Positions 13,598-18,025 of a stretch of 36,719 bases of DNA are shown piece after piece; the stretch's first letter is position 1; every line of letters begins with the position of its first letter. Under the pieces are notes generated by a model, which worked only from the letters and a program-made list of their open reading frames with translations, was not told where the DNA came from and did no database searches. Position numbers and translations under genes: made by a program. Origin of the DNA: a bacterium (GTDB taxonomy: Bacteria > Bdellovibrionota_C > UBA2361 > RFPC01); assembly GCA_009926305.1 (NCBI GenBank), contig RFPC01000020.1, positions 1 through 36,719 on the forward strand, written 5' to 3'.

Positions 13598-13667
13598 ACC
13601 TTGTATCTTCGCGGATTCTCGCCATTGGCACCAGATACGTATTCGCTGAAGAAGCCATGAAAAGAGC

Positions 13668-15518
13668 TTATATGGAAAGAAGCCTCAACAAGAGAGAGGG
13701 CTGTGCATTTGCTTGAGCAAGAGTCGCTACAGCAGCTTGTTGGAGAATTTGGATCCTTACAAGCTCTGCTGCCTCAGAAGCAACATCCACATCTCGAATA
13801 CGTGATTCTGCTGCTAAAATCTCATCCCGCTGTAAAGCGATTGTGTTCTCTGCGTATGACATCCGAGAAAGCGACGCTCCTAGCTGGCCCCGAAGAGCAC
13901 CGACTCCAGCGAGATTCGATGACAATCTATCAACCCCCTCCCGAGCAGCCTCAGCCGAGGTTACTTGAATCGACCCAAGCCCAGCTACCATACGCCGTAT
14001 ATCAGAAATGCCAGCAGAGATGGTTCCAGAGGTCCCATATCCAACCTGAAAGACATGATTCTTCTCATCTGGGGTTAGGGAGTATTGATGAAGATCTCCA
14101 CCAGAATCAGTAGCAAAAGCGGTCTTTCCATCCGCGCTCAGATGAATGTTATTAAGGGTCCCGTGATTGCCGTCCGTCAGCTGGACTACTCGATTTGTAA
14201 TTCGATCGAATTGAAAGAACTCTGTGCTGCCGTCACTGTTTTCGCCAGTAAAATCGCTTGTACTGGAAAAGTTTACCATTGTTCCGTCCAGCGAAAGTGC
14301 AACATTTTGAATTAACTTCGTTTCCTCAAAATTCGTAAGCTGCGTCGTAGCACCTGAACTAATATCAACTTCAAATATTTGTCGGAGGGAATTTCCGTTT
14401 CCAACAAGATCTGAGGTTGAAGTAACGAGGAGCTTTCCATCATCGGTGAGTCCTCTTGCTGTCATCGAATTATCGGAGAATAACACGGAAGACTCCATTC
14501 CCGTCTCGCTTATCTGGACCGAGATAAACTTCCCTGCAGCATTCGAGAATGCTCCTTTGGTTCCATCTGGAGATATGAAGAAATTACTTATAGTACCGGA
14601 AAACTCTTCTCCATTTGTCCAGATTTTTCCCGTTGCTACATCCAGAGCATACAGCCCTGGGTTTGTTGTTGAAGAACCAGTAGCATCATCTTTTGTTCCG
14701 CCGTTCACATATTCGGAACGAGCAAGAAAAAATACTGTCGAACCATCGGCGCTGATTTTTGCCTTTGACTGGTCGGCAGTATTTGAGGAGTTTGTTAACT
14801 GCTGTTCCTGTCCTGTAGCAAAATCATACAGAAACATATCTTCACCAGAGGCATGCTCGAGCGAAAGCACAACCTTGTCATCAACCGTATATCCCTTAAC
14901 AGAAACACTGTTAATGAACGCCCCTCCCATCCAACCAGATAGCACTCCCGAGTTGAGGGTTAATGAGTCGCCCTCTACAGAATCATAGAAAGAAATTTCA
15001 TTTGCCGGAGGAATTCCTGAATAATATGCGAGATATCTTCCACGAACATCAACGCTACTAGACGTAGATGACGATTCAACGAGCGTTCGACCTCCTGAAT
15101 TTGGGCTTCGGTCAAAGATCTGCATCCCGTTAAACTTTGAACTACTGGTGATTCGACGAATCTCTTGATCAAGAGCATTGATCTCTTCCTGCATTGAGAT
15201 CCGCTGCTGCTTACTGAACGTGCCATTGGCTCCTTGTTGGGCCAATTCCTGCATGCGAGCGGTCAGGTTTGTAACTTGTTCAAGCGTTGAGTCTGCGATG
15301 CTTACAAATGATGTGGCATCTGAAACATTTCTACGGGCCTGGGAAAAGACTCGAGCGCGAGAGCTTAAGCTATCTGCTATCGCACGTCCTGCCGAATCAT
15401 TTTGTAATCTTTGACCACTCGAAAGTCGCTCTGATACCCGCATGAGCTCGTTCATCGTGCCACCAAGAATCCGAACCGCTCGGAGGGAAGCAATATTTGT
15501 CTGGAGCGAAAAAACCAT
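13668..15518 (-). CDS. Flagellin with a TolB/PD40-like beta-propeller insert
   Basis: 616 residues. The N-terminal D0/D1 region (1-140) has the classic pattern: NIASLRAVRILG, RLSSGQRLQNDSAGRAIADSL and the long helices to KFNGMQIFDR. The C-terminal D1/D0 region (about 489-616) has FQVG, then GVDRLSSNLAGVGALRGQLGA and ends AQANAQPSLLLRLLSI, so filament assembly should be intact. Between them, residues about 158-488 contain six or seven blade-like repeats with an aromatic strand, an SxDG turn and a Tyr/Asp strand. Examples are ISADGSTVFFLARS (255-268), FISPDGTKGAFS (314-325), LTDDGKLLVTSTSD (357-370), LSLDGTMVNFSSTSD (408-422) and LSADGKTAFATDS (460-472), often ending in TGQEQQLTN or TTQLTN. This resembles the TolB/PD40 propeller of periplasmic proteins and would be displayed on the filament surface. 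It lies between mraY and ftsW, where murD is usual. The ribosome site is weak, and I see no sigma-28 or sigma-54 promoter in the 195 bases upstream. Confidence 0.93.
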   Translation of the reverse strand: MVFSLQTNIASLRAVRILGGTMNELMRVSERLSSGQRLQNDSAGRAIADSLSSRARVFSQARRNVSDATSFVSIADSTLEQVTNLTARMQELAQQGANGTFSKQQRISMQEEINALDQEIRRITSSSKFNGMQIFDRSPNSGGRTLVESSSTSSSVDVRGRYLAYYSGIPPANEISFYDSVEGDSLTLNSGVLSGWMGGAFINSVSVKGYTVDDKVVLSLEHASGEDMFLYDFATGQEQQLTNSSNTADQSKAKISADGSTVFFLARSEYVNGGTKDDATGSSTTNPGLYALDVATGKIWTNGEEFSGTISNFFISPDGTKGAFSNAAGKFISVQISETGMESSVLFSDNSMTARGLTDDGKLLVTSTSDLVGNGNSLRQIFEVDISSGATTQLTNFEETKLIQNVALSLDGTMVNFSSTSDFTGENSDGSTEFFQFDRITNRVVQLTDGNHGTLNNIHLSADGKTAFATDSGGDLHQYSLTPDEKNHVFQVGYGTSGTISAGISDIRRMVAGLGSIQVTSAEAAREGVDRLSSNLAGVGALRGQLGASLSRMSYAENTIALQRDEILAAESRIRDVDVASEAAELVRIQILQQAAVATLAQANAQPSLLLRLLSI

Positions 15519-15671
15519 CTGAACTACTCAACACCGCTTAAGAGCAACACACCCCATCCGCATCGAAAACCAACCAATGGTTCCCTGATCACTATAGGCG
15601 ACTCTTTTTGGAAAAAGGTGAAGAATCTGAGTCTCTTACCTGTCGTTAACAGACATTATTGGTGATTTTTA

Positions 15672-15686
15672 GCAGAGGATCTCTGC
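15672..15686. repeat. Inverted repeat between mraY and flagellin
   Basis: Perfect 6-bp stem GCAGAG / CTCTGC with a 3-base loop, 28 nt after the mraY stop in transcription order. On the minus strand it is followed by TAAAAATCA, not a T-run, so it is not a standard intrinsic terminator. The rest of the 195-base gap (15519-15713) shows no gene. Confidence 0.45.
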
Positions 15687-15713
15687 ATTCATACCAGAAG
15701 TGCTTAGCAGATT

Positions 15714-16778
15714 TTACCGCAGCTTTAGTGTTGAAAGCGAAATAATAGCGAGCACGATTGAGATAATCCAAAAGCGTACAATGATTTTTGGCTCTGCCCA
15801 ACCTTTGAGCTCAAAGTGATGATGTATCGGCGCCATTCGAAAAACGCGTTTTCCAGTAAGCTTAAAAGAATACACTTGAAGGATTACTGAAAGTGCCTCA
15901 ATCACAAAAATTCCACCTGAGATAACCAGTAACATCTCTTGCTTTACCAAGACCGCAATGGTTCCAAGCACGCCACCTAAACTCAGAGCACCGATGTCTC
16001 CCATAAACACTTGGGCTGGGAAGGTGTTATACCACAGAAATCCAAGCCCACCTGCAATGACAGAAGCGAGAATAATAGCAAGCTCGCCTACTCCCGGAAC
16101 GCCCATAATCCCAAGATAACTTGAGAACTCCGCGTGTCCAGTAATGTATGCAAATGCTGCATAGGCCGTAGCTACCGTCATAATGGGGCCGATGGCTAAT
16201 CCGTCTAACCCATCCGTCAAATTCACTGCATTAGAGCAACCAACCACCACAAGCATCACAAAGGGTATAAACCAGATACCGAGATCAAAAAATAAATCTT
16301 TAAAGAACGGAACCGTAAGTCCTGAGGGAAAGTCGGTTACGTAGAGGATAGTTCCAAGCGTTAGAGCAACACCAAACTGCCACGCCAACTTCATTCTACC
16401 ACTAATGCCACCAGAGTCCTGCTGTGTAACCTTTTTCCAGTCGTCAAGAAACCCAAGACCCGCATAAGCGAGCATCACCACCAGCACCATCCAAACAAAC
16501 TTATTGGTAAGATCATTAAATAAAAGGGCAGAAAGCATCATCCCCACTATGACCACGAGCCCTCCCATAGTAGGAGTTCCCTGTTTACTGAAATGGTCTT
16601 TTGGCCCTTCCTGACGAATCGGCTGACCTTTGATTCCTATTTGTCGTAGACGTGAAATAAATATCGGCTGAAAAATGAGAACAAACGTAAATGTAAAAAT
16701 AAACGCTAGCGCAGCGCGAAATGTCAGATAGCGAAAGATGTTGATCTCAAAAAGCGAGTGTAAAACATGATAGAACAT
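15714..16778 (-). CDS. mraY: MraY, phospho-MurNAc-pentapeptide translocase
   Basis: Inner-membrane enzyme that transfers phospho-MurNAc-pentapeptide to undecaprenyl phosphate to make lipid I. 354 residues with about ten membrane helices. Visible hallmarks are GFLDDWKKVTQ (the DDxxK magnesium site), NLTDGLDGLAIGP, VFMGDIGALSLGG and the C-terminal PIHHHFELKGW. All are intact. The ATG overlaps the stop of the murF-like gene (TAATG) and a ribosome site AAGGTGAG lies about 9 nt upstream, which suggests tight translational coupling. The next gene in the transcript direction is the flagellin, 195 nt away. Confidence 0.97.
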   Translation of the reverse strand: MFYHVLHSLFEINIFRYLTFRAALAFIFTFTFVLIFQPIFISRLRQIGIKGQPIRQEGPKDHFSKQGTPTMGGLVVIVGMMLSALLFNDLTNKFVWMVLVVMLAYAGLGFLDDWKKVTQQDSGGISGRMKLAWQFGVALTLGTILYVTDFPSGLTVPFFKDLFFDLGIWFIPFVMLVVVGCSNAVNLTDGLDGLAIGPIMTVATAYAAFAYITGHAEFSSYLGIMGVPGVGELAIILASVIAGGLGFLWYNTFPAQVFMGDIGALSLGGVLGTIAVLVKQEMLLVISGGIFVIEALSVILQVYSFKLTGKRVFRMAPIHHHFELKGWAEPKIIVRFWIISIVLAIISLSTLKLR

Positions 16779-18025
16779 TAGGGAGTCTCACCTTCACTGA
16801 AATTCATATTAGCAAGCGTATACAGTTCATCTCTCTTCTGAAAGAGACCTTCCGCAAGAGTATCGTCCTCAATATAGGCTATTGCGTAAAGAGGGGTTTC
16901 TTGGACTAAGGAACGAATGGCCTCGGGAATACTCTTCACCTCCGTCACCCACTTTTTCAGATCTGGAGAAGTTTCCTGATCAGGCGTTGTCCCAACGAGA
17001 TAGAGCTGAATGTCCTCCAGAAGGTTCTTTTCACTACTCTCGATAAACGGCTTGAGGGCAGCAAGACTATCAGTGATGAGGGCAAAACAGACTCCCTCAT
17101 TGTCAGATATCATCATTCTCAGCGTTTCTACATCTGGAGGGGTTTTCCGCTCAATCCACAGGTCTCCAACTTCACCCATACTCACGTGAAACCCGTATGC
17201 AGGAGGTGCAAAGAATCGGTTGCCGAGCTCTTGAAAGTTCTCCTTCGTGGCCTCCACCTGTACACGTTCTGCTATTTTTGGCAGGAATCGAAGTGCTCGC
17301 AGCAGTCGAAGGTCAGGAACAATCCACGGAGTGATTGAAAACTCGTCTGAGACGTATGCAAATTTTCCGCGATCCATATAGGCAAGCTCTTCACTAACAT
17401 CTTGGGCTGTCTCTATATACAAGACTTCCGCTGCAACATCATCTTGGTGCTCTTTGCTCGGGGCACTTCTTATTACAAGATCAGGCTCTAATTCAGAACG
17501 AAGCCTGCTCATTCCTTCCTCTAAACCAATCAGGTACCACAAACTTTCATCTTCACTATTCATCACGCAGGCAGCCATCGCATGCTCATTCTGACGATGA
17601 GTAAGAAGAGGCGAAAGATCTCTGCTCGATCGAAAGCATCCCTTCTTGAAAGACAGCAACGCACTCGCTACCACCTGTTCGAACCACCCGATGAGCGGGT
17701 CTGCTCCCTCAAGGATCACTACTGGAGAATCCATCTTTGTTCTCCACCACCGAAAGAGCTCCCAAAATGCACTGGCAGGATCCTGAACAAGAATAGAATA
17801 CTCCCTCGCCTCCTGATTTAGCTCAACGCCCTGCTGAGTTACGATCATTGAGGCCCCACGGTCGAAAGCTTGCTGTGCGGTTGCATTCAAATCGAAATAG
17901 ATTTCTCCTGAATTTAATGTATCGAGATCAACCGCTACCCCCCGAGCACCACTATTGATGTTGCCTATCTGCTGAGTAGGCGTCAGAAGAGTTGCCACTT
18001 CCTGAAAGGTTGCTCGAAAAGCCAT
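16778..18025 (-). CDS. MurF-like pseudo-ligase at the murF position
   Basis: 415 residues with an intact frame, between murE (5-nt gap) and mraY (TAATG overlap), exactly where murF lies in dcw clusters. The N-terminal third looks like MurF domain 1: VAVDLDTLNSGEIYFDL corresponds to the family's SIDSR..GDLFFAL, then RGASMIV, SAFWELFRWWR and VVILEG. At the place of the GxxGKT(T/S) ATP loop it has EGADPLIGW (106-114), with no lysine or threonine. The central region keeps a faint ligase pattern (LIGLEEGMSRLRSELEPDLVIRSAP). At the C-terminal DDSYNANP signature it has IERKTPPDVETLRMM (291-305). It is therefore a MurF relative that very probably cannot bind ATP or ligate D-Ala-D-Ala. Conservation of length, frame and coupling argues for a retained non-catalytic role, perhaps scaffolding. 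A true murF should then lie elsewhere; this is inference. Confidence 0.8.
   Translation of the reverse strand: MAFRATFQEVATLLTPTQQIGNINSGARGVAVDLDTLNSGEIYFDLNATAQQAFDRGASMIVTQQGVELNQEAREYSILVQDPASAFWELFRWWRTKMDSPVVILEGADPLIGWFEQVVASALLSFKKGCFRSSRDLSPLLTHRQNEHAMAACVMNSEDESLWYLIGLEEGMSRLRSELEPDLVIRSAPSKEHQDDVAAEVLYIETAQDVSEELAYMDRGKFAYVSDEFSITPWIVPDLRLLRALRFLPKIAERVQVEATKENFQELGNRFFAPPAYGFHVSMGEVGDLWIERKTPPDVETLRMMISDNEGVCFALITDSLAALKPFIESSEKNLLEDIQLYLVGTTPDQETSPDLKKWVTEVKSIPEAIRSLVQETPLYAIAYIEDDTLAEGLFQKRDELYTLANMNFSEGETP

Follow-up and report, generated by a model that had tools for sequence, protein, structure and literature searches.

A predicted seven-bladed beta-propeller inserted in a flagellin, and diversified propeller-bearing flagellins in the same class

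Overview

A flagellin gene at positions 13668–15518 of the window (the whole stretch of DNA analysed, 36,719 nucleotides) encodes, between its two assembly halves, an insert that according to profile evidence is a seven-bladed TolB/PD40-type beta-propeller, two of the blades having been assigned by eye and no confident structure model being available. We consider it probable, at roughly 60 %, that this propeller and the related ones described below are binding or recognition heads displayed on the flagellum. Ligand, expression and structural data are absent, and export, assembly, display, co-assembly and binding are inferred. The flagellin core, propeller family, number of blades, orthology within the class, expansion of the family and unequal divergence of core and insert were established as far as sequence comparison allows.

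Flagellin gene and domain architecture

The reading frame has an ATG start and encodes 616 aa with no internal stops. Its main features are as follows.

13668..15518, minus strand: flagellin gene with propeller insert, 616 aa
15108..15503, minus strand: N-terminal D0/D1 half, residues 6–137 (Flagellin_N, E 1.8e-25)
14043..15089, minus strand: insert of ~350 aa, residues about 144–492, predicted TolB/PD40-type beta-propeller (insert profile, PD40 in homologs, blade HMM)
13677..13922, minus strand: C-terminal D1/D0 half, residues 533–614 (Flagellin_C, E 3.5e-18)

Flagellin_N and Flagellin_C matched opposite ends of this one reading frame, both over the Pfam cut-off, which was the criterion for a flagellin (FliC). 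An initial sequence-only reading had placed a propeller at residues 158–488 between intact D0/D1 halves. Its limits and coordinates were found to be correct, and the two halves are indeed intact around the insert.

The Flagellin_N score of the window core was 90–95 bits, compared with 120–140 bits for this genome's short flagellins, indicating a core that diverges more than that of ordinary flagellins. In addition, three residues are absent, in frame, from a conserved N-core motif after residue 39 (window about 15399–15404), which reads SGQRLQ---NDSAG in the window protein and SGLRINRAADDAAG in relatives. Both features would fit a protein that is not a filament subunit but uses the flagellar export gate and then acts free or as a minor component near the tip or hook. 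Both assembly halves are, however, full length, and we regard such a role as very improbable. A scan for sigma-28 promoters gave no clear enrichment relative to shuffled sequences.

Propeller fold of the insert

Blades were predicted with an HMM trained on relatives only, with the window protein left out of training. Five blades were found in the window flagellin (residues 225–242, 255–299, 358–395, 408–448 and 460–472) with a summed score of 85.1 bits, whereas 1,000 shuffles of the insert gave at most two blades and a top sum of 12.9 bits. Blades 1 and 4 were added by eye on the basis of position and motif, bringing the total to seven.

14949..15056, minus strand: blade 1, residues about 155–190, by eye from position and motif, with an aligned blade seen in homologs
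14790..14906, minus strand: blade 2, residues about 205–243, blade HMM match 225–242 (5.1 bits)
14622..14762, minus strand: blade 3, residues about 253–299, blade HMM match 255–299 (19.5 bits)
14481..14585, minus strand: blade 4, residues about 312–346, by eye from SPDG turn and spacing, with an aligned blade in homologs
14331..14462, minus strand: blade 5, residues about 353–396, blade HMM match 358–395 (29.5 bits)
14172..14309, minus strand: blade 6, residues about 404–449, blade HMM match 408–448 (28.8 bits)
14061..14150, minus strand: blade 7, residues about 457–486, weak blade HMM match 460–472 (2.2 bits)

The minimum required to close a ring (four or more blades) is reached with the five HMM blades as well as with all seven, and the initial estimate of six or seven blades can be narrowed to seven. 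The repeats described as having TGxxQQLTN endings are present, but the motif was generously drawn, as Q-L-T ends only three blades (TGQEQQLTN, SGATTQLTN and TNRVVQLTD).

The window protein alone matched no Pfam propeller family at cut-off, the best being DPPIV_N with an E-value of 0.084, and no match to PD40 (PF07676) was listed for it at E-values up to 10. PD40 was over the Pfam cut-off in five homologous flagellins, and a profile of the nine-member insert family matched TolB structures in the PDB with E-values from 9.4e-12 to 7.5e-7. The proposed TolB/PD40-like fold was therefore upheld through the homologs and the family profile, while the suggested PD40 check failed on the window sequence by itself. 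A PDB search with the insert as a single sequence returned chance antibody matches and weak propeller ones, none of them reliable. AlphaFold2 run without an alignment gave a pLDDT of 41 for the full protein and 42 for the insert, and the coordinates were not used. Nearly all Foldseek matches to the poor insert model were propellers, but with a TM of about 0.2, which is weak support.

The insert resembles TolB/PD40 propellers of the WD40-like superfamily in its SxDG turns, its Q-L-T blade ends and its profile match to TolB structures. It differs in being seven-bladed and inside a flagellin, with no Tol-Pal role. No TolB N-terminal domain was found beside the propeller, which is flanked by the flagellin halves with no other domain matched.

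Flagellinolysin is similar in that a functional folded domain lies between intact flagellin D0/D1 halves and is displayed on the filament (PMC5595980, PMC7643111). In flagellinolysin, however, this domain is a metallopeptidase (gluzincin protease) in the hypervariable region, whereas the window flagellin has a beta-propeller without a protease motif. The window propeller could likewise be a filament-displayed enzyme, given that some propellers are enzymes and that weak similarity to the propeller regions of DPP IV and Dpp5 was observed. Those matches do not extend to the catalytic domains, and the window protein lacks the HExxH motif and any match to a peptidase catalytic domain, so that the criterion for flagellinolysin is unmet. 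The invariant columns of the insert are, moreover, mostly blade-turn residues (Gly, Asp, Ser and Ala). An enzymatic function is scarcely credible on this evidence.

Distribution and orthology of TolB-type flagellins

Whether other flagellins carry the same insert had been raised as a check, and a search of 97 genomes of relatives using the insert only found it inside flagellin ORFs in 8/97, namely the window genome and seven further genomes, all from the same class. A tree was then inferred for 134 flagellin cores from the class, in which long genes had been fetched on purpose, so that it represents types and not unbiased fractions. The long flagellin ORFs fetched comprised 65 of FG-GAP type (insert 314–403 aa), 9 of TolB type (359–388 aa) and 13 of intermediate size.

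Most TolB-type cores fell in one clade (support 0.976), nested among the FG-GAP and mid-size types, and the ordinary short flagellins formed a separate clade (support 0.996). The window flagellin clustered with single members from three relatives, G001, G002 and G004 (support 0.946). Because of this grouping within the TolB clade, the window gene is most likely, as judged from the core tree, an inherited ortholog rather than an isolated chimera. It had first been taken for an unusual single protein; it is instead a member of an ortholog group, and among the propeller-bearing flagellins that have expanded across the class its type is the minority. Bin contamination was considered and rejected, as same-genus and same-family genomes hold members of the same clade.

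A further, more distantly related flagellin (L146, 1126–2841, plus strand, genome G044) carries a different PD40 subfamily with SGDTNGxxDVFVRD repeats and seven clear blades. Its C-core showed no clear grouping in the TolB clade, and it may represent an independent acquisition.

FG-GAP/VCBS-type flagellins and paralog expansion

The FG-GAP type of insert is commoner than the TolB type in the class, with matches in 23/46 class genomes, a count that also includes non-flagellin FG-GAP proteins. The window genome itself encodes a second propeller flagellin of this kind (L158, 1015–2994, plus strand, contig G000:C4), which is 660 aa long and has an FG-GAP/VCBS integrin-type propeller (FG-GAP_3, E 2e-38). 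The criterion of an FG-GAP match or repeated DxDxDG loops was met by this protein, and neither was present in the window protein. All three of Flagellin_N, FG-GAP_3 and Flagellin_C were matched in 15/15 sampled FG-GAP-type flagellins, and in the flagellin sets of two genomes each propeller had seven DxNxDG motifs spaced 47–49 residues apart. The L158-type flagellins thus share seven FG-GAP repeats with DxDxDG loops with the integrin-like FG-GAP/VCBS propellers (PF13517; PMC8023676), but the members described in that work are secreted proteins, lectins, toxins and integrins, and flagellins are not mentioned.

The number of flagellins longer than 550 aa varied between genomes, from 17 in G005, 12 in G004, 10 in G001 and seven in G003 to two in the window genome and one in G002. 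Many FG-GAP-type flagellins were seen in relatives, some of them in tandem arrays (e.g. L179). The mid-size flagellins L041, L186, L192, L207, L212, L213, L223, L195 and L184 are 415–487 aa long with inserts of about 200 aa, and had weak FG-GAP matches in some cases and no family match in others. Giant FG-GAP-rich ORFs were also observed in G000:C44 (2,179 aa), G005:C14 (3,898 aa) and G035:C60 (4,585 aa), that of G005:C14 having a weak Flagellin_N match below cut-off.

Divergence of core and propeller

FG-GAP paralogs within one genome were 94–97 % identical in the N-core and 36–53 % identical in the propeller. Likewise, pN was 0.02–0.04 in the N-core and 0.33–0.45 in the propeller, with pS about 0.6 in both. 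These propellers retained their blade skeleton and the DxDxDG-loop aspartates, and nearly all other positions varied. For TolB-type orthologs the median identity was 46 % in the core and 26 % in the insert. At the sequence level, the paralog comparisons show inserts whose evolution is strongly relaxed or diversifying; positive selection is not proven, because the mean pN/pS of the insert is below 1 with pS close to saturation. Swapping of cassettes between paralogs was also considered, and the similar synonymous divergence of core and insert argues for divergence in place.

The role suggested in the initial reading, binding of a ligand, a surface or prey, is thus far only inferred: extreme propeller divergence beside a constrained core would fit binding, and would fit evasion of phages or grazers equally well. 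The main rival explanation is that the propellers form a variable coat against flagellotropic phages, grazers or host immunity, without a specific ligand. This would be consistent with propellers that diverge far faster than cores, in paralogs and in TolB-type orthologs alike, and with the many paralogs per genome. However, the seven-bladed scaffold is conserved, its metal-loop aspartates are invariant, and one slot is occupied by propellers of two unrelated superfamilies, none of which a coat would require. These are arguments from design and not tests, and with them we hold a ligand-free coat to be rather unlikely.

The propellers could also be structural, with outer domains forming a sheath or lattice on the filament that changes its stiffness or its swimming in viscous media. 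In several flagellins, sheaths made of dimerised outer domains have an effect on motility (PMC8931119), and the insert sizes are uniform at 314–403 aa. The sheath flagellins of EHEC H7, Achromobacter and S. meliloti resemble the window flagellin in having large outer domains between D0/D1, which affect motility and adhesion, but those domains lack convincing structural homologs, whereas the window flagellin has a recognisable propeller (PMC8931119). In a sheath the packing contacts should be conserved, yet it is the propellers of paralogs that differ while their cores remain nearly identical. A purely structural role is considered distinctly unlikely.

Proposed role

Binding is the usual use of the beta-propeller fold. 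In the favoured reading, that of a displayed binding head, the propeller flagellin would be secreted by the flagellar export gate like any flagellin subunit, and its D0/D1 halves would polymerise into the filament. The propeller would stand in place of the surface-exposed D2/D3 middle, presumably projecting once per subunit, where it would most likely be a non-enzymatic head that adheres to or recognises surfaces, particles or cells. Two kinds of precedent lead us to favour binding. Binding, of sugars among other ligands, is common in these propeller superfamilies, and lectins and integrins are found among the VCBS-type members (PMC8023676). In other bacteria, outer domains of the filament function in adhesion (PMC8931119) or, as in flagellinolysin, as enzymes (PMC5595980).

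At the level of the class, the TolB-type and much commoner FG-GAP/VCBS integrin-type propellers would form a multigene repertoire. Near-identical cores within a genome suggest that paralogs could co-assemble as mosaic filaments with many binding specificities. It is a tentative suggestion, and one we would not yet rely on, that such flagella constitute a receptor repertoire in which dozens of paralogs share mosaic filaments and integrin-like and TolB-like propellers recognise surfaces, particles or prey cells. Should this hold, hypervariable binding heads would be displayed multivalently on a natural scaffold, the flagellar filament, and two questions would become testable: whether flagellum-based adhesion or recognition is driven by outer domains, and whether one filament is assembled from many flagellins.

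Occurrence outside the class and previous reports

A full-length TolB-type profile was searched against 397 genomes around an unrelated lineage, with only about three candidates per genome scored, and the flagellin matches ended within or before the insert. When the FG-GAP flagellin profile was searched against 46 genomes from other lineages, as many as 27 candidates being scored in each, no match spanned both propeller and flagellin among the matches listed; FG-GAP propellers and flagellins both occurred in these genomes, separately, among those same matches. The absence of propeller flagellins outside the class is not proven. Giant flagellin ORFs of 919–1,172 aa were noted in other lineages (G060:C34, C9 and C51, and G362:C97).

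A full-text literature search limited to open-licence papers found no description of propeller-bearing flagellins, and propellers are mentioned neither in the flagellinolysin paper nor in a global flagellin survey. Domain-inserted flagellins are already known; we found no report of propeller-bearing ones or of their diversified paralog families in the open-licence literature, where they are apparently undescribed.

Genomic context

Within the dcw (cell-wall) gene cluster, the flagellin gene is flanked by mraY and ftsW (window 13598–15713). This position is not conserved, as the mraY–ftsW gap of the same-genus genome G002 has no flagellin and the orthologs are located elsewhere. The G002 gap also lacks a Mur ligase; in the relative G005, mraY is followed by a Mur ligase ORF. 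In a four-gene dcw tree the window branched deep. Its placement near Bdellovibrionia was weakly supported (0.31), and the enclosing group, which also takes in Desulfobacterota and Nitrospirota, had a support of 0.99.

A 415-aa protein with no Pfam family match occupies the usual murF place (window 16778–18025, minus strand). Identity to the counterpart from the same genus is only 33 %, compared with 84 % for mraY, and the murF place holds a Mur ligase-like ORF in the relatives G003 and G004. It is possible that the 415-aa protein is a degenerate or replaced MurF.

FlhA-family export genes are present in the window genome. Three separate FlhA/FHIPEP-family proteins were observed (G000:C3:82346, L269; C8:24579; C107:730), and flagellar or type III-like export in this genome may involve more than one system.
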